Origin: an uncultured Halomicronema sp.
GTDB lineage: Bacteria; Cyanobacteriota; Cyanobacteriia; Phormidesmidales; Phormidesmidaceae
Direction: 5' to 3'
Assembly: GCA_937899725.1 (NCBI GenBank)
Contig: CALCCA010000089.1
Span: 62,001-126,000, forward strand
DNA length: 64,000 nucleotides
Part shown: positions 27 to 18,745 of the stretch, one piece after another
Position numbering within the stretch: position 1 is the first letter of the stretch
Layout of the letters: each line of letters begins with the position of its first letter
Position numbers and translations under genes: made by a program
Notes under the pieces: model-generated
Databases searched by the model: none
What the model was told of the DNA's origin: nothing
What the model saw: only the letters and a program-made list of their open reading frames with translations

Positions 27-635
27 ATGGAACCGCGCCAGATGACGCAACTGCAGCTCACCGATCAGCCGGAGACCGCGATTGATTGGCTGCTCGATGC
101 GGTTGAAGAACAGCCCAAAACCGCCGAGTCTTTTATCCTCGCTCACCCTAACCTCACCGCTGAGCAGCAGCTGCAGATTCAAGAAATCTATGCCCGATAT
201 GACCACGACTTAGAGATCGCCGTCGAGGCCTATCTGCAATCGGTCAATTTACTCACCAATTTGGTCAGTCCAGAGACGGCCAATGAAGCGATCACCTATG
301 TCCGGGGTGAAGTGCTCGCGAACGAACAGGTGGTTCACGACCTCTTGTTTCAACGGACGATGGCCATTCGCGCCATTCTGCCGGTAGCACAACGTGCTTC
401 CCTCAACCAACTGCTGCGATCGCTGCTCAATTTAGGCACGCCCATCGAGGCTTCGACCTTTCCCTTTGACCTGATTGGGCAACCAGCAGCATCCGTGACC
501 GATCAGCTGCTAGAGCAGGGCTGGAACCTGTCGGTACAAACGCCACGCACCCTATTTTTTGATAAAGAGGGGCAAATGCTTGACCTCATCATCAATGGCG
601 ATCGGCAAGTCGCAGAGGTGCAGCTAACTCCCTAG
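27..635 (+). CDS. Hypothetical protein, start uncertain (frame open to window edge)
   Basis: I do not recognise this family. The 202-residue product is acidic and mostly helical: its first 140 residues read as amphipathic helices, followed by a short beta-rich tail with 'TLFFDKEGQMLDLIING'. There is no signal peptide or membrane segment, so it is probably cytosolic. The frame stays open to base 3, so the true start may lie outside the window; ATG at 27 and ATG at 42 are both possible. Codon use matches the neighbours. It is followed by a 384-base non-coding stretch and then two minus-strand genes, so it ends its transcription unit. Confidence 0.7.
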   Translation: MEPRQMTQLQLTDQPETAIDWLLDAVEEQPKTAESFILAHPNLTAEQQLQIQEIYARYDHDLEIAVEAYLQSVNLLTNLVSPETANEAITYVRGEVLANEQVVHDLLFQRTMAIRAILPVAQRASLNQLLRSLLNLGTPIEASTFPFDLIGQPAASVTDQLLEQGWNLSVQTPRTLFFDKEGQMLDLIINGDRQVAEVQLTP

Positions 636-1019
636 CAGACTACGGCGTAATTTTACCCACCATTACCGATGACTGGGGGCCGTAGGGGCCAAGGGGGCAT
701 CGAAACTGGAATGGTCGTCTTATTTCTGCCGTAGAGTACTAGAGGCTGTCATCATTTAGCGGCTGAGTCCTGATGTTGACAGCGGTTCAGCCTCTATCTA
801 AGTTTACGGAGCAGGCGCGGTAATGCCCATACCGTCAGGCTTTCGAGTTTAATTGATGACGCGCCCTAGTGCGAGTAGCTTCCGGCCCAGCGTTTAAGCC
901 TGTCTCACGACAAACCCGTTTTCTGCTGAGGTTTGGCCCTAATCCCGGCGATCACCGCCTCATCTTGGAGCCACTTCCTCAGGATGCTCTATTAGGGAGC
1001 ATCTGTAGACCGTCCGCTC
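636..1019. other. Non-coding gap with one long imperfect hairpin
   Basis: This gap separates a plus-strand gene from two minus-strand genes. The only structure seen is an imperfect hairpin at 741-795. The possible ORF 869-1174 runs antisense over the YciI gene and has arginine/proline-rich composition, so it is treated as a shadow. Confidence 0.6.
741..795. other. Imperfect hairpin (possible terminator or structured element)
   Basis: AGAGGCTG (741-748) is complementary to CAGCCTCT (788-795). The inner arms TCATCAT and ATGTTGA extend the pairing with one mismatch and a bulge. There is no T-tract on either side, so a Rho-independent terminator is not proven. It lies between convergently oriented genes. 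Confidence 0.35.
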
Positions 1020-1289
1020 TCAAAACACCTGATTCCAGCCGTAGACCTGATAGTCTGTCCAGATGCCGTTTTCCCAGTAAGGATCCCCTTCTACCAGCTG
1101 CCGCACCGTCGCTTCATCGTCAGCCTCATAAATACCCAAGACTTTCGTGTTATCGACGGTTGGCCCGAGGGTGACCAGCACCCCGCTCTCTTTCTGCGAT
1201 GTCAGTCCGGCGAGGTGAGCGGTGCGGTAGGGCGTCCGCTTTTCCAGCGCGTTCTCACAGTAGCTGCCCCACAGGATGAATTTCGCCAT
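1020..1289 (-). CDS. YciI-family protein
   Basis: The 89-residue product has the size and fold pattern of YciI-like proteins, small alpha/beta ferredoxin-like domains: 'MAKFILWGSYCENA...RTAHLAGL...LVTLGPTVD...VLGIYEADDEATVRQLVEGDPYWENGIWTDYQVYGWNQVF' in outline. The conserved His after RTA and the 'DPYWENGIW' segment are typical. No reaction is established for most members, and a catalytic His/Asp pair is assumed from the family. It starts 18 bases downstream of the end of the ureidoglycolate-lyase-like gene on the same strand, so the two are probably co-transcribed. Confidence 0.85.
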   Translation of the reverse strand: MAKFILWGSYCENALEKRTPYRTAHLAGLTSQKESGVLVTLGPTVDNTKVLGIYEADDEATVRQLVEGDPYWENGIWTDYQVYGWNQVF

Positions 1290-1306
1290 TGATCGCGTTC
1301 CTATCG

Positions 1307-1801
1307 CTAGATGATTTCAAATTCTACGTGGAAGCGCGATCGCAAGTTGCAGGTTTGATGATCAACGACGTTGGTGTCGCTCAGCTCTAGGTTATAGAAA
1401 TCCACCTCTGGCGCGTCAAACAGCGGCCCCGCATGCCAGGTGCCTACATGCAGTTTGATGAAACAGTCACCAGGAATCGTGAAGGCACGAATACCGGCTG
1501 GCTCCGGCTCTGTAGCGGCTCCCGGAGCCGCTACAGCCATCAACCAGGGAATGCCATTGAGAGATCCTAAACATTGCGTGCAGCGCTGATGGCGGGTGAT
1601 TGCGCCAAACTGACGGCCCTTAGTCGGCAGTCGCATGATGTAAAACCGTGGAATGCCCTGACTCAGGTCTAGCTGGGCATCCTCTGGGCCATAGGCGGTC
1701 CCATCTTGGGAGGCTTTTATCACCTGACCAAAAGGAGCAAAGGCGTCGGGGGTTAGGGGCTCAGCCGTCAGCGATTTGAGGGTGATCGGGGTCGCAGTCA
1801 T
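1307..1801 (-). CDS. Ureidoglycolate lyase (AllA)-like cupin protein
   Basis: Residues 'LTPDAFAPFGQVI' near the N-terminus, 'HQRCTQC' in the middle and 'KLHVGTWHAGP' about 50 residues from the end match the ureidoglycolate lyase/AllA family of cupins. AllA releases glyoxylate from ureidoglycolate in allantoin breakdown. A frame runs 43 codons further upstream, but that extension is arginine-rich and unlike the family; the ATG at 1801 gives 164 residues, the usual length. No other allantoin genes are nearby, so the substrate is inferred only from the family. The YciI gene follows on the same strand. Confidence 0.8.
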   Translation of the reverse strand: MTATPITLKSLTAEPLTPDAFAPFGQVIKASQDGTAYGPEDAQLDLSQGIPRFYIMRLPTKGRQFGAITRHQRCTQCLGSLNGIPWLMAVAAPGAATEPEPAGIRAFTIPGDCFIKLHVGTWHAGPLFDAPEVDFYNLELSDTNVVDHQTCNLRSRFHVEFEII

Positions 1802-1934
1802 GGTAATACTCAAGCGATCGACTGCTCCCAATCTAGCGCCTGCCGCCCGCCTTCTACCGTTTTTGGCGGGACGATCGCCCCGCCAGGCGCTACCCGTCCG
1901 GTGCTTGCAAGATCGCCAGCGACTAAGCATCTAT

Positions 1935-1977
1935 GTCAGCCCCGATCACTTTCCTGGGTGCCGCGATCGGGGCTGAC
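1935..1977 (-). terminator. 13-bp perfect hairpin after the CHAT gene
   Basis: GTCAGCCCCGATC (1935-1947) pairs perfectly with GATCGGGGCTGAC (1965-1977) around a 17-base loop. It begins 27 bases past the stop of the minus-strand CHAT gene and before the AllA-like gene. No clear T-run follows, so terminator function is inferred from position and stem strength. Confidence 0.45.
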
Positions 1978-2003
1978 CCATAGGGCTGTCCCTCGCCACC
2001 GCC

Positions 2004-4724
2004 TTAGTTATCTGACGGCAGTTCCTCTGGTGGCGCTTCTTCTGAGGACAATTCCTCTGGAGACGCCTCTTCGGGGGATGATTCTTCTAAGGGCAAGTCT
2101 TCTGGGGGCAAGTCCGCTGGGGTTAATACGCTTCTGGTCTCAGCATCCCAATAGCGGTAGTCTCGTCGCCAGTCCTGGAGCAGTGTTGGCGTCCATAGCC
2201 AGTTGTTCCAGGTATGGGGCGATTCATCGATTTGGCTCACAGCTCGCGGCGTCACCCGTTCCAATTCGTCCAGCCTTTGCAGCGTCAAAAAATAATCTTG
2301 GGCCAGGGCCAGTTCATTTGCCGACTCGATATCTAAAATGGCCTGCTCATCTTCGCTCGCCTGCTGTAAACCCGCATCTTCTTCAACTCCGGCAGGATTA
2401 ATATTGCCAAGCATCGTGTGGGCCATCACCAACCCCGCGTAGGCGTGCAAAATGGTCGGATCTGCAGGCGCCGCGGCTGGATTCGGTTGACGACGGCGTT
2501 GCTCATCGTAGAGGGTCAATGCGGCTTCCCAATTGGCGATTGCACTATCCCAATCGCCCATCGCATAGTCAGCAAAACCGCGAGCAATACGGCCTTCAAT
2601 GAAGCGATCGGGGGTGCGTTCCCAAGCCGTGCGAGCTTGCTGGGCAAAGATGCGCCCCTCATAGCGACTATTGACATCTTCTGGCTCCGATTGCATTAGG
2701 CTGCTTTCTTGCCAGGCAATGCGGCCCTTGATGTAAAGCAAGTCGGGCTCTGTCGTATCGCGCACCCAAGCCCAAACAGCATCACCCACCGTCGTGGGGT
2801 CGGCATTGCCAAGCAGGGCTTGGGTCAACGCCTGATCAAACTCGTCGCGCGCATCGGCGTAGCGGTTTTGCTTGAGGGCATCTTCGCCCCGCTTAATCAG
2901 GGTAAAGGCATCAGCGTTAGCCGGTTGTGGTTCTCCAGAGGGTGTGGTTGGCGTGGCGGTCGGCAGTACCGGGGGGCGGACACCGTTTTCTGACCAGCGA
3001 ATGGCCAAGAGGCCCAGACCCATCATGCCGACTACGCCCACGAGCCCCAGGGCAAACCAGACCAAGATGGGTTTTTCGGGGGAGCGCGGCAAGTAACGGC
3101 GGCTGGCGCCAGCGTTGGGTGTGGGTGTTGCGCTTTGATCTGGAGAGTGGTTGATGGTCGCCGATCGCGCCGGGGGCAAAGGCTGGGGGCGATCGGGCGG
3201 CGGCACCTCAGGCAGCGTCTCATAGATCTCTAGACCGGCCTGCCGAGTTGGGTCACTGACTAAGACCTCGCCCTGATCGGCAGGCATGGGGGGCTCATCG
3301 GGGCTGCTCGCGTTTTTAGAGAGCTGTTCGACGAAGCTGACCAGCAGCTCATCTTCGTCGGCATCGGGAAGGGGGGCCGTTTCTAATTCCGTGAGCAAGG
3401 TGGCCGTGACGCCCTCAGCTAGAGGCACCTCGGGCACCTCAGGCACTTTGGGCACCTCGGGTTCGTTGACGAGGGGTGTTGGCGGCGGCGGCGGCACGGC
3501 GGCCGCGGGTGCCGGCTCCGATCGCGGCAGCGGTACCGGTGGGTTGAGGGGCAGCAAATCGGTATCAAGGGACTCATCGGTGGTTCCCCCGCCCTGAGTC
3601 AGGTAGCCATCAAAATCTGGCTGCAAATATAGGATGGGCAAGGCCCAATAATGCTGATCGGAGCCAAACCCGGAGATTAGGCCCTGCCGGGTGCGGCTCA
3701 GGCTCATGTCGATGGGAAAGCCAATGCGCAGGTTGTGATAAAACAGCCGCGTAAAGGCGATCGCCACCTCATCGGGAATCCGTTCGGCCATCGCGACGAC
3801 CCCCGGCACCCCCCGATTGACTAGCGCCTGCACCAGGTTTTGCTGTCGCCAATCCATTTCGGCGTCATCGGCGGCGGTGTGGCCACTGCGACAAGAGTTG
3901 AACACCGCCAGCGCCACGTGATTGTTGACCAACAGACCGGCCAGATCATCGCCCGACAGTCGCTCAGTCAGACCCGTCTGCCGATTGACTAGGGATAAAT
4001 CGCCGCCGTTTTTACCAAAGTCGCTGTGGCCCGCATAGTGCAATACCTGATAGGTGCCTTGCTCTAGTTTCTGGGTGAGCAAAGCGCGATCGGGCTGCTC
4101 TAGCACGTCAATGCAAACGGGAGTCGCCTCACCGGGCTGGCTCGTAAACAGTTCGCGAATGTGCCCCGCTTCTTGCAGCAGCTGCAGATGATCTTGGTCT
4201 TCAGGGCCGGCGATGACCAACAGCACGTTGATCGACGTGCCGACTTCGAGGCGTTGGGGGGCACTGGCCGTGGGCTCCATCAACGGGTTGGCGGCGTACC
4301 GCGCAAAGGTGAGGTTTGGCCGGGTGGTCAGGGGTTGGCCGCTGTGCTGCAGCACTTCCCAAGGTAGCCGCTGCAAGCGACTCTCTTTTAACCCCAGCCG
4401 CAAGCGCAAAACCTCGTGGCGGTTTTGGGCAATGCCCCGCGCCCGCAGCCAACTTTCGCGAATTGCCTCATCTTGAAACAGCGCATTGTAGAGTTTGCTG
4501 CCCAGTTGAGGCAGGCCCGCTGGGTGATCGCTCAAATCCACCGTGCCCTGCAGCAACCCCATCAGCGGATCATCCATCGCCGGTTGCGCCAGCTGTAGCC
4601 ACTCATCCACCGGCCAGTCAACCTGGGCTTCGGCGACGGGCACCCCCGCGGCAGCGTCTTCGGTGCGGATCAGGTAGCGATCGCTGCCCAGCGATGTAAT
4701 TGAGAGATGAAATTCTTGAGTCAC
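2004..4724 (-). CDS. CHAT-domain (caspase-like) membrane protein with C-terminal helical repeats
   Basis: This 906-residue protein carries an N-terminal CHAT domain (about 1-375). The presumed catalytic pair is seen as His in 'HYAGHSDFG' (H233) and Cys in 'FNSCRSG' (C278). A proline-rich linker (380-550) precedes one membrane segment at about 554-576 ('LVWFALGLVGVVGMMGLGLLAI'-type run). The C-terminal half has TPR-like helices and ends in a tail of repeated Pro/Glu/Ser units. CHAT domains are caspase-family proteases, often activated by partner proteins in bacterial death or defence systems. The domain would be cytosolic with the helical part beyond the membrane, or the reverse. No obvious partner sensor gene lies beside it. 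Its substrate is unknown. Confidence 0.88.
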   Translation of the reverse strand: MTQEFHLSITSLGSDRYLIRTEDAAAGVPVAEAQVDWPVDEWLQLAQPAMDDPLMGLLQGTVDLSDHPAGLPQLGSKLYNALFQDEAIRESWLRARGIAQNRHEVLRLRLGLKESRLQRLPWEVLQHSGQPLTTRPNLTFARYAANPLMEPTASAPQRLEVGTSINVLLVIAGPEDQDHLQLLQEAGHIRELFTSQPGEATPVCIDVLEQPDRALLTQKLEQGTYQVLHYAGHSDFGKNGGDLSLVNRQTGLTERLSGDDLAGLLVNNHVALAVFNSCRSGHTAADDAEMDWRQQNLVQALVNRGVPGVVAMAERIPDEVAIAFTRLFYHNLRIGFPIDMSLSRTRQGLISGFGSDQHYWALPILYLQPDFDGYLTQGGGTTDESLDTDLLPLNPPVPLPRSEPAPAAAVPPPPPTPLVNEPEVPKVPEVPEVPLAEGVTATLLTELETAPLPDADEDELLVSFVEQLSKNASSPDEPPMPADQGEVLVSDPTRQAGLEIYETLPEVPPPDRPQPLPPARSATINHSPDQSATPTPNAGASRRYLPRSPEKPILVWFALGLVGVVGMMGLGLLAIRWSENGVRPPVLPTATPTTPSGEPQPANADAFTLIKRGEDALKQNRYADARDEFDQALTQALLGNADPTTVGDAVWAWVRDTTEPDLLYIKGRIAWQESSLMQSEPEDVNSRYEGRIFAQQARTAWERTPDRFIEGRIARGFADYAMGDWDSAIANWEAALTLYDEQRRRQPNPAAAPADPTILHAYAGLVMAHTMLGNINPAGVEEDAGLQQASEDEQAILDIESANELALAQDYFLTLQRLDELERVTPRAVSQIDESPHTWNNWLWTPTLLQDWRRDYRYWDAETRSVLTPADLPPEDLPLEESSPEEASPEELSSEEAPPEELPSDN

Positions 4725-4906
4725 GGTGACAGGGGCGGTAACAGGGGCTGTCTAGAGCATGCCCAAAAGCGGGGCATTTGCAGAACGTTATCTCTCAGGG
4801 TAAGTCACCCCTCTGACAATCGGCTGTGGGGGGTGACCCCAATTGCTTTTGGCATAGGGGCGATCACTTTAGGATAAATTCACCTGACTACCCCCTTAAG
4901 CTGACT

Positions 4907-5443
4907 ATGAACCAGATCGTTTTCTTCTACAGCGGCTCAGAACCCCTGATTCGCATCGTTGTCGTGGGTTCCTTAGCCTATTTCAGCTTGGTGCTTTTGT
5001 TGAGAATTTCTGGCAAGCGCTCACTCGCGCAGCTGAATGCTTTTGATTTTGTCGTGACCGTCGCGATCGGCTCTACGTTAGGACGACTGATCACCGCCAA
5101 AGGCACTTCTCTGGCCGAGGGCATCACCGCCTTCCTAACACTGTTGCTGCTGCAATATCTGGTCTCTTGGTTCACCGTGCGCTCATCTACCTTTGAGGAT
5201 TTAGTAACCGCTGACCCATCATTACTATATTTTCGCGGACAGTTTTTGCCGACCGCGATGCGGGCACAGCGGGTTACTCAATCACAGCTGCTGGCCGTCG
5301 TTCGCCAGCATCAAGTGGTCTCTCTCTCTGCCGTCGAAGCGATCGTGATGGAATCAGCTGGGACTATCGCCATCATTCCAAAGGCTGCTGATGGAACCCC
5401 TGCCAATGCTGCCGTATTAGACAATGTTCGCGGAGTTAGTTAA
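4907..5443 (+). CDS. DUF421 (YetF-like) membrane protein
   Basis: The product has two or three hydrophobic helices in the first 90 residues, including 'IRIVVVGSLAYFSLVLLLRISGKRSL'-type sequence. The family hallmark 'R-x-S-GKRSLAQLNAFDFVVTVAIGS' follows, and then a soluble domain with 'PSLLYFRGQ'. DUF421/YetF proteins are membrane proteins of poorly known function. The frame opens at 4826, but the ATG at 4907 places the first membrane helix near the N-terminus and gives 178 residues. It is divergent from the CHAT gene, with 182 bases between starts. Confidence 0.85.
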   Translation: MNQIVFFYSGSEPLIRIVVVGSLAYFSLVLLLRISGKRSLAQLNAFDFVVTVAIGSTLGRLITAKGTSLAEGITAFLTLLLLQYLVSWFTVRSSTFEDLVTADPSLLYFRGQFLPTAMRAQRVTQSQLLAVVRQHQVVSLSAVEAIVMESAGTIAIIPKAADGTPANAAVLDNVRGVS

Positions 5444-5689
5444 AAGATTGGCTTAAACCATGTTTCTAGAACTGCCAACGTTTCTGTCAGGGTTGGGCCG
5501 TGCCAAACGCCTGCGATCGGGAAACTATTTTTGAGCAACAATTCATGCGACGCCTCAAACGACGCAAGCCTTAGGGGGGAGCATTTGCGCACCGATGCAT
5601 CGAGATTACCGCCAACCCTAGCGAGGCTGAGCGTCACCCAATAGCCAGTTGGCAAGCCCCCGGGGTCTGGTGCCTAGCGCCCTTGCCTG

Positions 5690-6331
5690 CTAAACCTTGG
5701 CCGCCAGCCGCTGGCAAAACATCAGCACCGCCTGCAGCACCACTGGCGAAATCTCATGCCCGATGTTGTATTCCTTGTAGGTCACATCAACGCCCTGCGC
5801 GGTGAGGGCATCGCGCGACTGATGGGCTCTGGCCAGCGGCACCACCTGATCTTGCCGACCATGCACCATGAGCAACGGCCCGAGGTCGGGGTGCGGCGCT
5901 GGCGCACTGTGGCTGTAGCCGCTCAGCACCAATGCCCCAGCCAAGGGCAACTGCAACCCCACATCCATCGTCATGGCCCCCCCTTGTGAAAATCCGGCCA
6001 CCAGCGTGCGCTCCGGTGGAATGCCGGTTTCCTCAGCCATTTGCCCCAGCCACGCTTTTAACAGCTGCCGACTCTCTTGCAAATCGGCCTGTTGTTCAAA
6101 ATCATGGTCACTCTGAAAGTCATACCCCGTCGGAAAGCTGTACCACATCCGCCCTCCCGGTGCTTCAGGATGGGGAAACGGCGCATCAGGAAACAGCATT
6201 TTGACCCCCGGCATCGGCATGTAGCCCGCCAGTGCGGCCAAGTCTTGCCCGTTGGCTCCCCAGCCATGTAGGCCGATCAGCAGTTTATCGGCCGACTCAC
6301 TTGTCGTTTTGGCGATCGCGCTCAAACTCAC
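5690..6331 (-). CDS. Carboxylesterase/phospholipase-family alpha/beta hydrolase
   Basis: The 213-residue product matches the small carboxylesterase (Abhydrolase_2) family. 'LHGWGANGQDL' forms the oxyanion-hole region, Ser sits in 'AGFSQGGAM', Asp in 'HGRQDQVVP' and His in 'IGHEISP', completing the triad. These enzymes hydrolyse short acyl esters or lysophospholipids in the cytosol; the substrate here cannot be told. The start is GTG at 6331, with an AGG-containing stretch just upstream; there is no signal peptide. It is divergent from purH. Confidence 0.88.
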   Translation of the reverse strand: MSLSAIAKTTSESADKLLIGLHGWGANGQDLAALAGYMPMPGVKMLFPDAPFPHPEAPGGRMWYSFPTGYDFQSDHDFEQQADLQESRQLLKAWLGQMAEETGIPPERTLVAGFSQGGAMTMDVGLQLPLAGALVLSGYSHSAPAPHPDLGPLLMVHGRQDQVVPLARAHQSRDALTAQGVDVTYKEYNIGHEISPVVLQAVLMFCQRLAAKV

Positions 6332-6479
6332 AGGCTGACCTCAGTATCGTTTCCGCAGACGATTTTAACGTTTAACCAGCAGATGACAGCAGCAGCTGTG
6401 CCGACGGCATTCAGAGCATGCCAGAGCGCATATCGAAGTTAGCAGAAGATCTCTGCACTTTGTCCGCCAAATACCTCTC

Positions 6480-6565
6480 CGCTCCCACGCTCAACTCCGA
6501 ATTTCCAACTTCCAACGCCGAATTCAACCCTCCCAACTCCGAACGCCAAATTCCCCCTCAAACCG
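6480..6565. repeat. Degenerate short-repeat filler (AACTCCGAATTCC type)
   Basis: This stretch is built from loosely repeated units such as AACTCCGAATTTCCAACTTCC and CCGAATTCAACC. Similar filler occurs at 27712-27745, 39540-39630, 39930-40010 and 44365-44670. It lies in the leader region before purH. Confidence 0.5.
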
Positions 6566-6616
6566 CCCTTCCTCCGCACTACCCCGGTATATTGAGATTT
6601 ACACGAGACGGAGACA

Positions 6617-8179
6617 ATGGGCATGTCGCGGCTAGCACTACTGAGCGTATCGGACAAAACGGGACTGGTGGATCTGGCCAAAGCGCTGGTGGAATCCTTT
6701 GACTTTGAGATCGTGAGCAGCGGCGGCACCGCCTCAGCGATCGCCGAGGCCGGCCTGCCAGTCACCAAAGTCGCTGACTACACCGGCTCACCAGAAATTT
6801 TAGGCGGTCGGGTGAAAACGCTGCATCCCCGCATTCACGGTGGCATTTTGGGCCGTCCGGCCCTGCCCAGCGATGCCGAAGAGATGACAGCCAACGACAT
6901 TCGGGCCTTCGATTTGGTCGTGGTTAACCTCTACCCCTTTGAGCAAACGATTGCCCAGCCCGATGTCACGCTGCCTGACGCGATCGAGCAAATTGATATT
7001 GGCGGCCCCACCCTGCTGCGAGCGGCAGCCAAAAATCACGCCTACGTCACCGTGCTTTGTCAGCCCGACCAATACTCAATATATTTGGCACAAATGACCG
7101 AAAACGGCGGCGAAGCCTCTCCTCAACTGCGGCAAGACTGCGCTCGGCAGGCCTTTTGGCATACGGCGACCTACGACCAGGCGATCGCGAATTACCTATC
7201 AGCCTCAAAAGTCGAGGTAACAGCCGGGGCGGCTTTGCCCCAGCGATGGACGCTTACGGGCACGCAGCGCCAATTACTGCGCTACGGTGAGAATCCTCAC
7301 CAAGCGGCGGCCTGGTATCAAGCGGGCAACGTGCCGTCGGGTTGGGCCGCAGCGGAACTGGTGCAAGGCAAACCCTTGAGCTACAACAACTTGGTCGATC
7401 TAGAAGCCGCGCGGCGCATTCTGGCCGAATTTCCGCCCCAGTTACCGGTTGCCGCCGTGCTCAAACACACCAATCCTTGCGGTGCCGCCCAGGGAGATTC
7501 GCTCGCTGAAGCCTATCAAAAGGCCTTTAATGCCGATTCGGTCTCCGCTTTTGGTGGCATTGTGGCCCTTAACCGCGCAATTGATCACGACACGGCAACG
7601 GCGCTCTCAAAAACGTTTCTCGAGTGCATCGTGGCCCCTAGTTGTGATGCCGATGCCCGAGAAATTTTGACCCAAAAGAAAAACTTACGGGTACTCTTGT
7701 TGCCCGACCTGTTCAGCGGCCCGACTCATACGGCTAAGGCGATTGCCGGAGGCTTTTTGGTGCAGGCAGCTGACACGGTCGAAGATGACCCCTCAGAATG
7801 GGAAATCGTCACCGACCATAAGCCCGATGCTGACATGTTAGAAGAACTGCTCTTTGCCTGGCGCTTAGTCAAACACGTCAAATCCAACGCGATTTTAATC
7901 ACCAAAAACCGCACTACGCTAGGCGTCGGGGCTGGTCAGATGAACCGAGTTGGAGCCGTTAAAATTGCCCTAGAGCAAGCCAATGAGCAAGCTCAAGGCG
8001 CGATTCTAGCCAGTGATGGCTTTTTCCCCTTTGATGATTCCGTGCGCACGGCAGCGGCGGCGGGCATCAAGGCGATCGTGCAGCCGGGGGGCAGTAAGCG
8101 CGACGAAGACTCGATCAAGGCGGCGAACGGCTTGGGGGTGGTGATGGCCATGACCGGCATCCGCCACTTTTTACATTGA
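6617..8179 (+). CDS. purH: Bifunctional AICAR transformylase/IMP cyclohydrolase
   Basis: PurH performs the last two steps of purine synthesis: formylation of AICAR with 10-formyl-THF, then ring closure to IMP. The first 200 residues are the MGS-like IMP cyclohydrolase domain ('SVSDKTGLVDLAKAL', 'VSSGGTASAI', 'HPRIHGGIL'). The rest is the transformylase, with 'RYGENPHQAA' near residue 222 and 'LKHTNPCGAAQ' near 282. At 520 residues it is full length. The start ATG (6617, or 6623 two codons later) follows a GGAG ribosome-binding site ('acggagaca'). It is monocistronic; a repeat element follows. Confidence 0.97.
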   Translation: MGMSRLALLSVSDKTGLVDLAKALVESFDFEIVSSGGTASAIAEAGLPVTKVADYTGSPEILGGRVKTLHPRIHGGILGRPALPSDAEEMTANDIRAFDLVVVNLYPFEQTIAQPDVTLPDAIEQIDIGGPTLLRAAAKNHAYVTVLCQPDQYSIYLAQMTENGGEASPQLRQDCARQAFWHTATYDQAIANYLSASKVEVTAGAALPQRWTLTGTQRQLLRYGENPHQAAAWYQAGNVPSGWAAAELVQGKPLSYNNLVDLEAARRILAEFPPQLPVAAVLKHTNPCGAAQGDSLAEAYQKAFNADSVSAFGGIVALNRAIDHDTATALSKTFLECIVAPSCDADAREILTQKKNLRVLLLPDLFSGPTHTAKAIAGGFLVQAADTVEDDPSEWEIVTDHKPDADMLEELLFAWRLVKHVKSNAILITKNRTTLGVGAGQMNRVGAVKIALEQANEQAQGAILASDGFFPFDDSVRTAAAAGIKAIVQPGGSKRDEDSIKAANGLGVVMAMTGIRHFLH

Positions 8180-8662
8180 GGTGCTGCACTACGGAGTTTG
8201 AGGCCAGGTCAGCCACCCTTTAATCAACCGATCGCGATCGCGTCTGGGCATGCCAGGGCCTGTTTACTCATGGCATCGGGAGAGCCGAGTCGTATTCGGG
8301 ATCAGGCATCATGAGGCACACTGACCCACCGGTTGAGGCGACACCCCGCTTTGGGGTGGGGTGCCCAAGGCGGGGTGGGTATCGCTCCTTCTGCTGAGAG
8401 TTTGTTCAACCCACCCCATTCGCTCCTCCCTAGAGGGGCAAGAAACGGAGTTTGGCTTAACCCGAACTGACGTTCATTAGTCGTTGTGGCTGACAGAATT
8501 GGGATTAAAGCTTGAGCTGCCACAATGCCTGAAATTAATTTCGTCGCTCAGCAAATCAGCTAGATTGATGTGCCTCACAACACACCGTGGCAGAGCGATC
8601 GCCCACCGAAATCAAACTAAATCCGACCTGGGTAATTGCTATCGTCCGAGTGAATCTGCATT
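8180..8662. other. Non-coding gap holding repeat copy 1
   Basis: The gap after purH contains a dispersed repeat (8295-8480) and AT-richer sequence upstream of the next gene. Nothing else is recognised. Confidence 0.6.
8295..8480 (+). repeat. Dispersed repeat, family 1, copy 1
   Basis: This segment reads from TTCGGGATCAGGCATC to CCCGAACTGACGTTCATTAG. It recurs inverted at 21204-21384 and, less completely, at 27530-27673. Shared blocks include 'CCCAAGGCGGGGTGGG', 'GCTGAGA', 'CAACCCACCCCATT' and 'GGCTTAACCCGAACTG'. It holds no coding frame. It begins 116 bases after the purH stop. Confidence 0.8.
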
Positions 8663-9364
8663 ATGGAGCTGACTCAAAAGACGATGAATTATTTCTCGAC
8701 GCTGATCACCTTACTGCGCGATCGCCCCAGCTTTTTAGAAGAAATTCGCAACGGCACCAAACTAGAATCGAAAATTGTGGCGCTGATTGTTGCCAGCTCC
8801 TTATTTTTTGCCATTTATGGCGCTATTGTCGGGGCCTCAAATGGTTGGCAGCAGATGTTGCTTTCAACAGTTAAGCTACCGGCTTTATACCTGCTGACAC
8901 TGCTGATTTGTCTGCCCACGCTCTACTTCTTTGACATTCTTTTTGGGTCGCAGGCTAGCTTCAAACAATACGCTGTCCTGAGTCTGACAACCGTTTCGGT
9001 CATTAGCGTGCTGCTCTTTAGCTTTGCGCCCGTGACGCTCTTCTTTCTCATTTCAATTCGCGATTATCACTTCTTTCTATTGCTAAATGTGGCTATCTTT
9101 GCGCTGACCGGCTTTATTGGCGTACAGCTCTTTTATCGCGGAGTTAAAAGCGTCATGAAATTCAACGAAAAGACCCCGCCGATCCGCCAAAGACTGCTGC
9201 TATTTTGGCTCGTCCTATATGGTTTAGTGGGCAGTCAACTGGGCTGGACGCTCAGGCCCTTCTTCGGCGCACCTGGAGAGCCGTTTCAGCTATTCAGGCC
9301 CATCGAAAGTAATTTCTACGCTCAAATCATTACCAGTATTCGCTGGTTTTTATTCGGAAATTGA
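8663..9364 (+). CDS. Multi-pass membrane protein, Yip1-like hypothetical
   Basis: The 233-residue product starts with an amphipathic segment ('LLRDRPSFLEEIRNGTKLESK') and then has about five or six membrane helices. The overall pattern resembles Yip1-like membrane proteins; similar cyanobacterial proteins are often named only by a doubtful WH2-domain hit, and I give no function. ATG 8663 has no good ribosome site and ATG 8684 ('MNYFSTLITLL') is an equal alternative. It sits 93 bases before another membrane protein on the same strand, so the pair may form an operon. Confidence 0.75.
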   Translation: MELTQKTMNYFSTLITLLRDRPSFLEEIRNGTKLESKIVALIVASSLFFAIYGAIVGASNGWQQMLLSTVKLPALYLLTLLICLPTLYFFDILFGSQASFKQYAVLSLTTVSVISVLLFSFAPVTLFFLISIRDYHFFLLLNVAIFALTGFIGVQLFYRGVKSVMKFNEKTPPIRQRLLLFWLVLYGLVGSQLGWTLRPFFGAPGEPFQLFRPIESNFYAQIITSIRWFLFGN

Positions 9365-10680: not shown

Positions 10681-10764
10681 CTTCTATACGTGGCCGTTGA
10701 GGTGAGTCCTCTGGCGGTTGGTGAACCAAGTCGAACGCTCATCTTCCCTTCTCTGGACAATGCT

Positions 10765-11556
10765 ATGGCTAACTCGATCGCTGCCAGAATCAATCCTCAA
10801 ACCGCGATGCCTGGCATCATTGGCGGGGTCGGGCCACTTGCCCATATTCAGTTTGAGCAGATTTTGTTGAACCGCAGCTGCCAACGCGGCGCCTGTCGCG
10901 ATCAAGATCATCCTGAATGGATCTTGATGAATGCGACCCAGATTCCCGATCGCACCCAAAGCATTCAAGGGATGGCCCCCGACTGCGCGCCTTGGTTAGT
11001 CAAATATGGTCATCGGTTAGAACGGGCCGGTGCTGACTTTTTGATTGTGACCTGCAATACGGCCCACGCCTTTTATGCCGCCGTCCAATCTCAGTTAACG
11101 ATTCCTTGGATTCCGCTGATGGGCGCGACATCGCAATGCATTCGTGAGCAGTATCCCCCGGTTCGCCGGGTCGGCATTTTAGCCACAGACGGCACACTGC
11201 AAACCCAGCTATATCACAAAAGTTTAAGCCAGGTCGGCCTCAAACCTGTCAGTCCTGCGCTCAGCTCACCCATGCAAAAGCGCATCATGCAGTCGATCTA
11301 CCATCCGGAATGGGGAATAAAAACCACAGGCGTGCAGGTGTCGAAAAAAGCGCTGTTGGATTTGACTCATGCAACCCACTGGCTCAAAGATCAAGGTGCT
11401 GAAGTGATCATCGCTGGCTGCACCGAACTCTCTGTGGGTCTGGCGCAGATTCCCGATCTCCCCCTACCGTGGATTGATCCCTTAACGGCGATCGCCGATA
11501 TGACGCTTGACCTAGCCCATGGTCAGCGCACTGCTGAAGCCCTAATCGCTGCCTAA
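10765..11556 (+). CDS. Aspartate/glutamate racemase family protein
   Basis: The product matches cofactor-independent Asp/Glu racemases, which invert the alpha carbon with two cysteines. Both are present: 'VTCNTAHAFY' and 'IIAGCTELSVG'. The N-terminal 'GIIGGVGPLAHIQFEQ' is the usual family opening. The frame begins at 10690, but ATG 10765 (MANSIAARINPQ) or ATG 10804 (MPGIIGGVGP) fits the family better; 10765 gives 263 residues. The next gene, a periplasmic amino-acid-binding protein, begins 15 bases after the stop, and a DAACS-family transporter follows. This suggests that D- or L-acidic amino acids are taken up and interconverted. The exact substrate is inferred. Confidence 0.88.
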   Translation: MANSIAARINPQTAMPGIIGGVGPLAHIQFEQILLNRSCQRGACRDQDHPEWILMNATQIPDRTQSIQGMAPDCAPWLVKYGHRLERAGADFLIVTCNTAHAFYAAVQSQLTIPWIPLMGATSQCIREQYPPVRRVGILATDGTLQTQLYHKSLSQVGLKPVSPALSSPMQKRIMQSIYHPEWGIKTTGVQVSKKALLDLTHATHWLKDQGAEVIIAGCTELSVGLAQIPDLPLPWIDPLTAIADMTLDLAHGQRTAEALIAA

Positions 11557-11571
11557 TCGAGGTGACTGACT

Positions 11572-12570
11572 GTGTCTAGCTGTCTAGATTTCCGAGCCCT
11601 TCGCCCCCCCGGATTTACCCTGCGGCGAGCCCTTACTTTTGTAGTTTTGACTGTCTTGCTCTGGGTCGGGATAGGGTTTACGGGAGTGGCGCCAGCCTAT
11701 GCCCATGCAACTAGCAGCTCAGCAACCAGTTCTAGGAGTAACCTCACAGCATCCACGACTCAGTCTCAGAGAGGCAGCAGTGAAGACGCGACTGCGACCG
11801 CGGCCACAATGCCCCCGGATATTGCTCAAATTTTAAAGCGCGGCAAGTTGGTGGTGGCCGTGTTGGGCAATGATAACGCCCCCTTCTTTATGGATACGGG
11901 GGAGGTGCAGCCCGGTGGCCTAGACATTCGACTGGCTCAGGAAATCGCCGACCAGTTAGATGTGAAATTAGAACTCAACCGCACTGCTGATACCTTCAAC
12001 GGCGTAGTCGATACTGTTTACAACCGAGAAGCCGATTTAGCGATCTCGAAGATTAGCCGCACCATGAAGCGCGCCAGGCGCGTGCGGTTTTCGCACCCCT
12101 ATTTGCAAATGCGCCAGGGTTTATTGGTCAATCGCCTGCTGCTCGCCCAACAAACGACGAATGAAAATGTGGTCGAAGCGATTCGGCAACTGACGGGCGA
12201 CGTCGGGGTGATTACAGGGTCTTCCTACGTGGGCTTTTTGCAACAGCGATTTCCGAAGGCCACGATTGTGGAGCTGGAGTCTTGGGAAAACATTGTGGCC
12301 GCTGTGAGCAGTGGCGAAATTTTGGCCGGCTATCGCGATGAGCTAGAAATCAAAAAGGTGGTGTTGACCAAACCCGATGCGGCCCTGCAACTGAAGACTG
12401 CCGTGCTCACCGACACGCAAGATTCGTTAGCCATGGTGCTGCCTTGGGATAGCTCGCATCTCTTGGCCTTTGTCAATCAATATCTCGACACCTTAGAGAC
12501 TGACTTGACCGTGGATGGCATTTTAGAAGAATTTTCATCCTATTGGGAGGCCCAAAAATCGGCTTCCTAG
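11572..12570 (+). CDS. Periplasmic amino-acid-type solute-binding protein (SBP family 3)
   Basis: The 332-residue product has an N-terminal signal segment ('LRRALTFVVLTVLLWVGIGF' region, probable cleavage after 'APAYA') and a low-complexity Ser/Thr linker. A family-3 binding domain follows from about residue 85: 'ILKRGKLVVAVLGNDNAPFF', 'GGLDIRLAQEIADQL', 'DLAISKISRTMKRARRVRFSHPYL'. These proteins bind polar or acidic amino acids in the periplasm, normally for an ABC permease. Here no ABC genes are present; a DAACS-family transporter begins 94 bases downstream. The start is GTG at 11572, 15 bases after the racemase stop, so the three genes are probably one operon. Confidence 0.9.
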   Translation: MSSCLDFRALRPPGFTLRRALTFVVLTVLLWVGIGFTGVAPAYAHATSSSATSSRSNLTASTTQSQRGSSEDATATAATMPPDIAQILKRGKLVVAVLGNDNAPFFMDTGEVQPGGLDIRLAQEIADQLDVKLELNRTADTFNGVVDTVYNREADLAISKISRTMKRARRVRFSHPYLQMRQGLLVNRLLLAQQTTNENVVEAIRQLTGDVGVITGSSYVGFLQQRFPKATIVELESWENIVAAVSSGEILAGYRDELEIKKVVLTKPDAALQLKTAVLTDTQDSLAMVLPWDSSHLLAFVNQYLDTLETDLTVDGILEEFSSYWEAQKSAS

Positions 12571-12664
12571 AAAGCTTTATTGCGATCGCGCCGCCTACCC
12601 TTGCCCCTTAAACGCCTCGGCCCATGACCGTCTCTCCTTACCATCGCTGGACATCGCACTCACC

Positions 12665-14005
12665 ATGACAACTTTCCTCAAAAGAAGATCGCTGCCCCCT
12701 CTTTCACTGGAATGGTTACGAAGCCCGTGGTGCATCTCACTCAGCGTCGTTTTAGGTATCTATATTGGCACCTCGCATAAGCCTTTGGCTGAGGCTATCA
12801 CCCCTGTCGGCAACCTTTATTTAGGGCTGCTGAAAATGTGTGTGTTGCCGATTTTGCTCTCAGCGATTTCTAACAGCATTGGACGATTGATGCAGAGCCA
12901 TGACGCCAAGCAGTATGTCCAGCGAATTTTGGTGGTGTTTCCCACGGCGATGGTGGCCGTGAGTGGGCTAGCAGTGGTGGTCGCCTCTATCACCGGGCCG
13001 GGTCGCAACCTGTCGACCGCCACGCTAGAAAGTTTGGGGGGTTTAGTCAATCAGTCAAGCATCGACTTAGAAGTTTCTTTGAGCGGTCCCCTACCAGTAG
13101 AAGAAGCGGGCCCCGACGTCGGCTCCTTTTTAGTCAGCATGGTGCCTGACAATATCTTCTCAGCGTTGAGTGAGGGCCAAACTCTGAGAGTTTTGATTTT
13201 TGCCATTGTTTTTGGCGTTTCTTTGGGGCTGATCAAAACCGCTAAGACTGAAGCCATGTTCGACGTTCTTGACAGCATTTATCAAGCCTTTAATCAGGTC
13301 ATTCACTGGCTGACATATCTCCTCCCGATTGGGTTGTGCAGCCTCCTGGCTACCCAGCTGTCAAAAATCGGGCTGGATGTGCTGTTTTCGATGGTCAACT
13401 TTGTGGTCGTGGCGATGGCGCTTTTCGCCGCTGTCTACATTGCGGGTACGGGCGTCATTTGTTGGCGGTCTAAACAATCGCTCTGGACCGTCTTGAGAGC
13501 GCTAAAAGATCCCACCATCTTGGCGCTGGCCACGACCAGCAGCTTAGCCTGTCTGCCGGCGGCGATCGCCAGCCTGCATGAAGATCTGAACTTTGATCGT
13601 CAAACGACCGATTTAGTGACACCACTTTCCATCACCGTGTGTCGCTTTGGCTCCATCATTTATTTTGCAGCGGCCACCCTGTTTGTCATGCAGCTGTACC
13701 AAAAACCGCTCGACTTTGGCACACTCTGGGTGATTTTGGTGGGCTCAGTGTTGGCGGGGATGGCCACATCAGGGGTGACCGGTATTTTGACCTTAACCAT
13801 GCTGGGGTTGGTGCTCGCCCCCCTGAAGCTGCCGCTGGATGCAGTGCTGGTCCTCTTTGTGGCGATCGACCCGATTATCAACCCCTTCCGCACGTTGAGC
13901 ATTGTGCATACGGGCATGGCCACAACGGCCATGATTGCGAACCTACACACCGAACATCAGCCAGTGGTTGCCAGTGCCTCTGGGTTTCCTACCGAGGCCG
14001 TCTAG
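12665..14005 (+). CDS. Divergent dicarboxylate/amino acid:cation symporter (DAACS/SDF family)
   Basis: This 446-residue, multi-helix protein has the glutamate-transporter fold: helical hairpin 1 around 'ATTSSLACLPAA' (289-300), hairpin 2 around 'GMATSGVTGILTL' and the helix-8 Arg-Thr in 'DPIINPFRT' (R409, T410). The usual NMDGT motif of helix 7 is replaced by 'CRFGS' (326-330). In helix 8 the second Asp is Asn406, and the later Asn and Asp ligands are also missing. In Na+-coupled members these residues bind cation and substrate amino group, so coupling is probably altered. It is encoded directly after a periplasmic binding protein and a racemase, an unusual partnership that suggests a binding-protein-fed transporter. 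Confidence 0.88.
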   Translation: MTTFLKRRSLPPLSLEWLRSPWCISLSVVLGIYIGTSHKPLAEAITPVGNLYLGLLKMCVLPILLSAISNSIGRLMQSHDAKQYVQRILVVFPTAMVAVSGLAVVVASITGPGRNLSTATLESLGGLVNQSSIDLEVSLSGPLPVEEAGPDVGSFLVSMVPDNIFSALSEGQTLRVLIFAIVFGVSLGLIKTAKTEAMFDVLDSIYQAFNQVIHWLTYLLPIGLCSLLATQLSKIGLDVLFSMVNFVVVAMALFAAVYIAGTGVICWRSKQSLWTVLRALKDPTILALATTSSLACLPAAIASLHEDLNFDRQTTDLVTPLSITVCRFGSIIYFAAATLFVMQLYQKPLDFGTLWVILVGSVLAGMATSGVTGILTLTMLGLVLAPLKLPLDAVLVLFVAIDPIINPFRTLSIVHTGMATTAMIANLHTEHQPVVASASGFPTEAV

Positions 14006-16946: not shown

Positions 16947-18359
16947 CTAATCACGCCGACCTGGCAACACCATGTTCAAAATCAGGGCGGTCAGCCCGCC
17001 GGCCGAAATGCCCGACGAGAAAATGTTTCTCACCAGCGGTGGCAGCTGCTCCAAAATATCCGGCACGTAGGTCACACCCAGGCCAATCCCCAATGAAACC
17101 GCCGTAATAAGCGACGCTCGCTTCGTGAAATTGACGCAGGATAAAATTTTGATGCCGGCTGCAGCGACCGTGCCAAACATGATCAGCGTCGCCCCCCCAA
17201 GCACCGGCTGCGGCATCGCCTGAAAGACCCCACCCACCACCGGGCACAGCCCCATCAGCACAAAAATTACCGCAATAAAATAGCCGATGTAGCGACTACC
17301 AATACCCGTCAGCTGAATCACCCCGTTGTTTTGACTAAAGGTGGTGTTAGGAAAGGTGTTGAAACAAGCCGCGATCAGAGAGTTGATGCCATCACCTAAA
17401 ACCCCGCCCTTAATCCGCTTCATATAGCGAGGGCCGGTGATGGGTTGGCCGGTGAGTAGGGAGGTCGCCGTCAGGTCGCCAATCGACTAGATCGCCGTAA
17501 TCAAGTACAAAAACGCAAAGGGAATAAAGGCCGCCAGGTCAAAGCCAAACCCATACCGAAACGGTATCGGCAGCAGGAATAGCGGCAACCCGGCGAGATT
17601 ATCGAAGGACACCAGCCCCAGTGGCCAAGCCACCAAATAGCCCACCACTAACCCAATCACGATGGAAGACATGCGCAGCAACGGACTGTTAGTACTGTTG
17701 AGCGCCAGAATGGTCACCAGCACGAGGGCCGCCACGCCCAGATTCGCCCAGCTGCCAAAGGTGCCCGCATCACGCGCAGCAAACCCGCCGCCCACGCTGG
17801 TCATGCCGACATTGATCAGCGTGAGACCAATCAGCGTGACCACAATGCCGGTGACTAAGGGCGTGATAATTTGCCCCGCCAAATGTAAAAACCGGCTGCA
17901 AAAAATCTCGACAAACGACCCCAAAAAGCACAGACCAAAAATCAGGCCCAGCGCTTCAGTCGGGGAACTTCCCGCAGCGATCGCGCCCGTGCCCGCTCCC
18001 AAAATCGGGCCAATAAAGGCAAAACTGGTGCCTTGAATACTCAGCAGCCCTGACCCCACCGGGCCGAAGCGGCGAGCTTGAATAAAGGTGGCAATGCCCG
18101 AAACAAACAGTGACATGCTGACCACAAACGCGGCATCGGCAGCCTCTAACCCCAGCGCCCCCGACACGATTAAAGATGGCGTGATAATGCCGACAAAACA
18201 GGCCAGCACATGTTGAATCGCGGCAAAAATTGCCTCTCGCAACGGCGGGCGATCGTCGAGGCCATAAATCAGCTCATGCTCAGCGGCAGCAACGACCGCT
18301 GGGGCAGCGGCTTCGTTGGTCACCGTTGAGCGCGAGACCGGTTGGGGGGCATCATCCAT
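16947..18359 (-). pseudogene. NCS2 xanthine/uracil permease interrupted by one in-frame amber codon
   Basis: Two adjacent minus-strand frames are in the same reading frame and together encode a full NCS2 nucleobase permease of about 470 codons. The only lesion is a TAG at 17489-17487 (codon 291 from ATG 18359). Upstream ends '...FLYLITAI'; downstream continues 'SIGDLTATSLLTGQPI', then 'GGVLGDGINS' and the family signature 'FSQNNGVIQLTGIGSRYIG'. By alignment from memory with E. coli XanQ, the TAG occupies the position of the essential Glu272 (E-x-x-G-D motif). GAG to TAG is a single base change. The rest is undamaged, so the lesion is recent, a sequencing error, or recoded. The frame extends upstream to 18533, but ATG 18359 better fits the family. 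Confidence 0.9.
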
Positions 18360-18745
18360 GCACAAGAAGCAGACACCGTCACCGGTGCTGTGTCGTAAAC
18401 AATATGGGTGGAGCAACCGGCTGCAGTCGCTGACCGGTGAGCATCTAAAATAACTGTGGTAAGCTACCGAACTTTGGGGCGCTATTTTGCAGGCGTTGCT
18501 ACAAACTGCGATCGCACCTGCCCTGTCAGTCACCTGTCCAAGTCACCAGCGCCCCATTCAGTTTGGTGGATCAGCCCCGCCCTGAATCGGTTCGCCAATC
18601 TCCCGTGCAGGCCCGCTGAGAGATCTGCGCTTGCATAACATCCTTAAGGATCGCCAATTTTCGCCCAGGTTTGACAGTGCCAAACCCGGGCGAGCGGTGA
18701 GGGCTATTTGGGCGCAACTTCCTGGGTGAGAATCTTCGCTGTCGA

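Follow-up and report, generated by a model that had tools for sequence, protein, structure and literature searches.

A binding protein of family 3 paired with a glutamate-transporter-fold carrier that lacks canonical Na+ ligands: a probable SBP-dependent transport system in cyanobacteria and other bacteria

A stretch of 64,000 nucleotides from an uncultured Halomicronema sp. (contig CALCCA010000089.1, positions 62,001 to 126,000), hereafter the window, contains three tandem genes on the plus strand. They encode an Asp/Glu-type racemase, a periplasmic substrate-binding protein (SBP) of family 3 (SBP3) and an elevator transporter of the DAACS family, with gaps of 15 nt between racemase and SBP and 94 nt between SBP and DAACS. 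This arrangement, described in an initial annotation of the window, is borne out by the open reading frame (ORF) coordinates and the Pfam families. A GTG at 10690 is a possible alternative start for the racemase; the ATG at 10765 is favoured because homologues are ~262 amino acids long. As judged from sequence comparison, the SBP and the DAACS protein probably form a binding-protein-dependent secondary transporter, in which an SBP3 protein of the type used by ATP-binding cassette (ABC) importers feeds a GltPh-fold elevator with acidic amino acids.

The SBP matches PF00497 (3.1e-19, 69.5 bits against a cut-off of 26.4), and its AlphaFold2 model (pLDDT 87.5) has the fold shared by SBP3 proteins and ionotropic glutamate receptor (iGluR) ligand-binding domains (top Z 23.1). 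Its hydrophobic N-terminus, ending in APAYAHA, agrees with the earlier description of a signal-bearing protein. The DAACS protein matches PF00375 (SDF; 2.5e-67, 228 bits against a cut-off of 27.9) and is the sole SDF-family match in the 7.0 Mb source genome. An elevator fold is predicted because its AlphaFold2 model, built from a 54-sequence alignment, has a pLDDT of 85.9 and matches GltPh with a Z of 40.4 over 394 aligned residues. The racemase belongs to PF01177 (1.5e-33, 116.8 bits, cut-off 31) and to the Asp/Glu racemase family TIGR00035 (163.5 bits, cut-off 93.1), and matches the aspartate racemase 1jfl at 1.3e-42. Both catalytic Cys residues, as first claimed, are present in the motifs VTCNTAH and AGCTEL. 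They also occur in full-length homologues; rows that lack one Cys are fragments ended by locus edges.

Table 1. Genes and residues of the transport unit in the window
Feature	Position	Strand	Basis or remark
Asp/Glu-type amino acid racemase	10765..11556	+	accessory partner with both catalytic Cys; cytosolic (signal region not seen)
SBP3 periplasmic binding protein	11572..12570	+	PF00497 and model fold
SBP N-terminal signal region, hydrophobic helix then APAYAHA	11572..11709	+	sequence; helix 14-35 in model
SBP Lys160, putative side-chain contact	12049..12051	+	in 57/58 R397-type pairs, 2/6 complete pairs without R397
SBP Arg167, at the SBP3 position for the alpha-carboxylate	12070..12072	+	invariant in 46 homologues
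SBP Arg255, which may contact the side-chain carboxylate, and Asp256 at the alpha-amino position	12334..12339	+	covariation of Arg255 with Arg397 of the transporter
DAACS transporter of elevator type, canonical Na+ ligands absent	12665..14005	+	PF00375 and model fold
TM7 motif C326-R327-F328-G329-S330 replacing NMDGT	13640..13654	+	R327 (position 311) is a shared mark of R397-type members
TM8 stretch D402...N406..R409 T410..I413...G417	13868..13915	+	R397, T398 kept; N401, D405 lost

Residues of the transporter were placed in GltPh numbering through alignments to GltTk and to an ancestral transporter. In transmembrane helix 7 (TM7), the NMDGT motif is replaced by CRFGS (N310 to C326, M311 to R327, D312 to F328, G313 to G329 and T314 to S330), and in TM8, D394, N401 and D405 have become N406, I413 and G417, while D390, R397 and T398 are kept as D402, R409 and T410. 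The alignment thus confirms the substitutions first read from the sequence, together with the retained Arg409-Thr410. The Na3 side in TM3 is altered too, Y89, T92 and S93 being F, A and M in the family alignment; T308 and T352 are retained. Canonical ligands for Na1 and Na3 are lacking. Members of the close clade share the motifs T[ILV]CRFG in TM7 and IDP..[DN]P[FL]RTL.IVHTG in TM8. The initial annotation had also pointed to loss of an amino-group ligand. The Asn406 in question is present in the window, but Asn at position 394 is almost limited to the window's genus, with few occurrences elsewhere, and loss of D394 as a family-wide trait was discarded, since most close relatives carry Asp.

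Sequence signatures have been defined for Na+-coupled DAACS proteins ([S/T]92-93, N310, [M/S]311, [D/E]312 and [D/E]405) and for H+-coupled ones (a hydrophobic residue at 92, L311 and N405) (PMC12668577). At the Na+ positions of that set the window transporter has A/M, C, R, F and G. The H+ signature of the same set would allow A92 but is contradicted by R311 and G405.

A scan of 84,980 species genomes yielded 46 related loci, the closest named records being Halomicronema and Leptolyngbya. The SBP gene adjoins the DAACS gene in 42 of these, and a racemase gene is present in 33. The order racemase-SBP-DAACS recurs in 29 loci; nine have SBP-DAACS, four (Planktothrix, Spirulina) have SBP-DAACS plus a racemase gene in opposite orientation and four have the DAACS gene alone. 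Three of the last four end at contig ends, and the fourth is from a Gloeomargaritales genome. The search for SBP3-DAACS neighbours in other genomes, proposed as a check on the unit, thus gave a positive result, and the three-gene order is found again in relatives. Recurrence of this order and of the substituted sites in dozens of genomes is more than would be expected by chance. At several loci the intergenic gaps are short or the genes overlap by 4 bases, which suggests translational coupling. An SBP gene is here coupled to that of a secondary carrier, one mark of SBP-dependent secondary transporters.

Co-occurrence was surveyed in 59 relatives and 292 genomes of the phylum (~350 cyanobacterial genomes). 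Every surveyed genome with this SBP also has an SBP-type DAACS, and the single genome with the DAACS and no SBP is 69% complete, with a broken contig. In two genomes with an extra SBP, that SBP is adjoined by a divergent DAACS of its own. Three Gloeomargarita-type genomes, that of the fourth DAACS-only locus and those of two relatives, contain both genes, 14 kb to more than 1 Mb apart.

SBP3 proteins normally serve ABC permeases, and the top sequence matches of the window SBP are indeed ABC binding proteins. It could thus be argued that this SBP serves an ABC amino acid permease encoded elsewhere and is merely co-regulated with an independent DAACS. This is very unlikely given the strict co-occurrence of SBP and DAACS even when unlinked, the congruence of their trees and the covariation of their residues described below. 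A motif scan confined to the 46 loci found no permease and ATPase genes accompanying the SBP: no ABC ATPase gene is adjacent on the same strand, and the four ABC-ATPase-like ORFs detected are all on the other strand, at a distance of ~4 kb or more. Likewise, no ABC transporter is found among the genes flanking the unit in the window.

SBP-DAACS pairs are also present in Myxococcota and Bdellovibrionota, on which the searches of other phyla were centred, further phyla being reached through plasmids only. In Pseudomonadota (Gemmobacter, Paraburkholderia, Cupriavidus), the pair is accompanied by a racemase and a second DAACS. Groupings in the SBP tree correspond to those in the DAACS tree across the phyla, and the two SBPs of genome G043, where two systems are present, cluster in the same way as their respective DAACS proteins. 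Pairwise distances in the two families correlate with r=0.93 over 26 pairs (0/5000 permutations as high), a value that partly reflects species history. The within-genome and cross-phylum cases therefore carry more weight than the correlation. In the final DAACS tree, from which L128 was omitted because of its very long branch, SBP-linked transporters without Na+ ligands are separated from classical DAACS proteins by a branch with 100/100 support, recovered in 200/200 bootstrap trees.

R397 is the side-chain-carboxylate ligand of GltPh. Among 58 SBP-DAACS pairs that retain it, the transporter has Arg at position 311 in all 58, and the SBP has R255 in 57 and K160 in 57. The six complete pairs without R397 have neither R311 nor R255 (0/6 each), and K160 is found in two; a seventh row, which ends before position 397, was excluded. 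SBP position 255 presumably matches the side-chain-contacting His of GlnBP. Arg167 and Asp256, the latter also invariant in the 46 homologues, lie at the SBP3 positions that hold the alpha-carboxylate and alpha-amino groups. In its simplest reading, the covariation would mean that the SBP and its transporter recognise a common acidic amino acid in one lineage, and a substrate of a different class in the other. Collectively, SBP and DAACS genes stay associated, have evolved along parallel lines and show covariation at residues that putatively contact the substrate.

Association with an SBP can be compared with the coupling signatures, bearing in mind that the counts, made by the criteria of PMC12668577, are phylogenetically non-independent: 61 SBP-linked DAACS proteins have neither signature and two are of Na+ type, whereas those without a neighbouring SBP comprise 42 of Na+ type, five of H+ type and 16 with neither. 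These 16 include the three Gloeomargarita-type transporters, whose SBP is unlinked, and a group of solo cyanobacterial DAACS proteins (L048:5512-6774 and L023-L026) with KRDG[AS] in TM7, Lys at 397, N405 and no SBP. The KRDG[AS] group is thus also unlike Na+-type carriers. The two Na+-type cases are L156:1435-3691 (minus strand) and L159:345-2685 (plus strand), where an SBP3 gene adjoins a DAACS gene whose Na+ motif is complete; they represent a second, independent recruitment of SBP3 by a DAACS. The idea that all SBP-linked DAACS proteins have lost their Na+ ligands was dropped on their account.

The Na2 site of GltPh is partly formed by backbone, and the window protein retains T308 and T352. 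An SBP-dependent DAACS might therefore still be driven by Na+, through remaining backbone sites or new ligands, and in L156 and L159 an SBP3 gene does adjoin that of an intact Na+-type carrier. Such coupling is nonetheless unlikely in the present clade, throughout which the Na1 and Na3 side-chain ligands and Met311 are replaced, with Arg at position 311 in every R397-type member.

A number of points weigh against a dedicated SBP-DAACS system of this kind. Besides the contribution of species history to the distance correlation, the covariation may represent one or a few events, as the members without R397, which cluster weakly (81/88), may be a single lineage. Linkage to an SBP and loss of the Na+ ligands can occur apart, since L156 and L159 are intact and some solo DAACS proteins lack the motifs. 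No SBP-DAACS gene fusion was found among the long DAACS ORFs examined; L167, L177 and L168 were considered and rejected, their extensions having no Pfam match. For L167:1465-3594 and L177:1483-3198 (both minus strand), these are N-terminal extensions of ~290 and ~140 amino acids, and the proteins have NQN in place of NMD. Nevertheless, the proposal in the initial annotation of a binding-protein-dependent DAACS with changed ion coupling is well supported by comparative genomics, through pairing, unlinked co-occurrence, presence in several phyla, tree congruence and covarying residues. Docking of the SBP on the transporter and the ion coupling itself are inferred.

In Paraburkholderia, the gene set is flanked by a VgrG-like gene and a VasE/TssK gene, within a type VI secretion system (T6SS) cluster. 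An example is L186 (Paraburkholderia phymatum STM815), positions 86-9213, with the order SBP-DAACS-racemase-DAACS2; L187 and L190 are similar. This placement raises a possible link between uptake of acidic, perhaps D-, amino acids and the killing of competitors. The second DAACS beside the pair is a fast-evolving paralogue (L185:4990-6330 and L186:5922-7373 in Pseudomonadota), and the cyanobacterium G043 likewise has one (L044:9776-11074). In PMC8356804, the T6SS-b genes Bphy_5989-5992 of P. phymatum are listed, the SBP3 being called an amino acid ABC transporter, and a set of this type is reported in ~15 soil strains including Cupriavidus necator H16. The authors of that paper took the DAACS proteins to be dicarboxylate symporters or sensors, suggesting that the T6SS-linked DAACS may sense dicarboxylates.

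The suggestion of sensing raises the alternative that SBP and degenerate DAACS together form a sensor (transceptor) and not a pump. Loss of the Na+ ligands, the T6SS-cluster location in Paraburkholderia and the occurrence of SBP3 domains in sensors such as BvgS would fit. It is, however, most improbable: the elevator fold and D390, R397 and T398 are retained, a metabolic enzyme is linked in cyanobacteria and Pseudomonadota alike, and no signalling gene was seen among the scanned genes next to the unit.

Turning to the substrate, an Asp/Glu-like acidic amino acid of either chirality is favoured by the sequence comparison, the covarying residues lending support to the acidic substrate first proposed. 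The suggestion of D-forms is weaker than originally stated, as it would rest on the racemase, which is missing from part of the family and is an accessory of the SBP-DAACS pair. Alternatively, the same SBP-DAACS system could carry cysteate, another sulfonate or dicarboxylate analogue, or mainly D-forms. The operon racemases of Gemmobacter and Cupriavidus exceed the cut-off of the cysteate racemase model CuyB (NF052483; 213 and 218 against 190 bits), and that of the window, at 178.8 bits, lies just below it, which makes cysteate a candidate. On the other hand, the window racemase passes the cut-off only of the general model TIGR00035, the CuyB model also accepts a racemase adjoining a classical DAACS, and no cysteate-breakdown gene was seen in the scanned neighbours. 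A plain C4-dicarboxylate is disfavoured by the invariant SBP Arg167 and Asp256. Overall, such substrates are rather unlikely. Linkage of racemase and DAACS genes recurs independently, in L169, L172 and L174, where a racemase gene adjoins a classical Na+-type DAACS gene and there is no SBP. In genome G043, a threonine-synthase-like pyridoxal phosphate enzyme, not a racemase, is encoded upstream of the DAACS-SBP genes on the same strand (L044:4138-5484, plus strand). Two SBP3 homologues (L040:7716-8813 and L052:7713-8948, both minus strand) have an N-terminal PG_binding_1 domain, by which they could be held at the cell wall peptidoglycan.

These features can be combined into a mechanism for SBP-dependent uptake of acidic amino acids. 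The periplasmic SBP would capture an acidic alpha-amino acid, Arg167 and Asp256 binding its backbone groups and Arg255 and Lys160 its side-chain acid. The loaded SBP would then dock on the outward-facing DAACS and pass the ligand on to the transport domain, whose R409 (R397 in GltPh) would bind the side-chain carboxylate. R327, which stands where GltPh has the Na2 ligand Met311, may provide a built-in positive charge as a substitute for Na+. The Na+-independent carriers CaiT and ApcT have Arg or Lys in this role, and the logic of a fixed charge proposed for R327 would be comparable. After the elevator releases the ligand inside, the racemase, where present, would convert D forms into L forms and back. 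The driving force for net uptake would be H+, the membrane potential, or the SBP together with metabolic removal, instead of classical symport with three Na+. The chances seem about even that the pairs constitute a further, SBP3-DAACS class of transporter in at least four bacterial phyla, in which a built-in Arg replaces the Na+ sites and the SBP, with the racemase where present, sets the direction of transport in place of Na+ symport.

The unit in the window is preceded by a purH-like gene and by genes for a Yip1-like protein and a protein of unknown type, and followed by genes for an FKBP and an argC-like protein (Pfam). Around the operon, an Rfam scan gave no regulatory RNA match, and promoter and terminator scans gave signals not above chance. 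Further downstream, two consecutive ORFs in the same frame with a stop between them (17487-18533 and 16947-17423, together 16947-18533, minus strand) resemble the N- and C-terminal portions of a single membrane protein similar to nucleobase permeases, perhaps a broken gene.

Only TRAP, TTT and, since 2025, TAXI-GltS have been described as secondary transporters that use SBPs (PMC12344293). A search of the openly available literature, which leaves absence unproven, found no description of an SBP3-DAACS system except for gene adjacency in PMC8356804. The Bphy_5989-5992 set of P. phymatum comprises the same SBP3, DAACS, Asp/Glu racemase and second DAACS; SBP-dependence, loss of the Na+ sites and the cyanobacterial relatives go unmentioned in the accessible text of that paper.

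The DAACS family, with GltPh and the EAATs, serves as a model for elevator transport. A branch that depends on an SBP and lacks Na+ ligands, if real, would open direct tests of how a substrate is handed from SBP to elevator and of how a glutamate-transporter fold works without Na+ sites. Cultured hosts are available in P. phymatum STM815, Leptolyngbya PCC 7375 and Nodosilinea PCC 7104, and C. necator H16 is a further host according to PMC8356804.

Among known systems, SBP3 ABC importers (GlnH, HisJ, ArtJ, PEB1a) share the SBP fold and the backbone clamp residues with the window unit, which differs in having a secondary carrier as partner and no ABC permease or ATPase alongside. Classical DAACS/SLC1 proteins (GltPh, GltTk, GltP, DctA, EAATs) share the fold and the substrate residues R397, T398 and D390, whereas the window unit has a partner SBP, has NMDGT and D405 replaced and lies across the 100/100 branch. 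The closest solved sequence by score is the ancestral AncInt (PDB 9bgz, 6.6e-35), a DAACS relative that also binds and transports its substrate independently of Na+. AncInt, however, keeps all Na+ side chains and is uncoupled by allosteric changes (PMC12668577), whereas in the window those side chains are replaced and an SBP is present. TRAP and TTT systems likewise combine an SBP with a secondary-active membrane component and an elevator mechanism (PMC12344293 and references therein), but have other SBP families and an extra small membrane subunit, with a DASS-like fold in TRAP and Na+ dependence in DctP-type TRAP. The nearest parallel in design is TAXI-GltS of Bordetella pertussis, where the gene of a binding protein is coupled to that of a glutamate carrier of the elevator type, a single-component protein that is usually solo; its SBP is of the TAXI type, its GltS/ESS carrier is Na+-coupled and modelled as a dimer, and there is no racemase (PMC12344293). 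Pfam gives SBP_bac_3 and SDF for the window genes, which thus fall outside TAXI-GltS: the unit pairs an SBP3 with a DAACS, a family that is trimeric in GltPh, and its Na+ ligands are lost. According to the authors of that study, additional classes are required for testing whether coupling to an SBP is made possible by the elevator mechanism (PMC12344293), and the SBP3-DAACS pair is a candidate for such a class.

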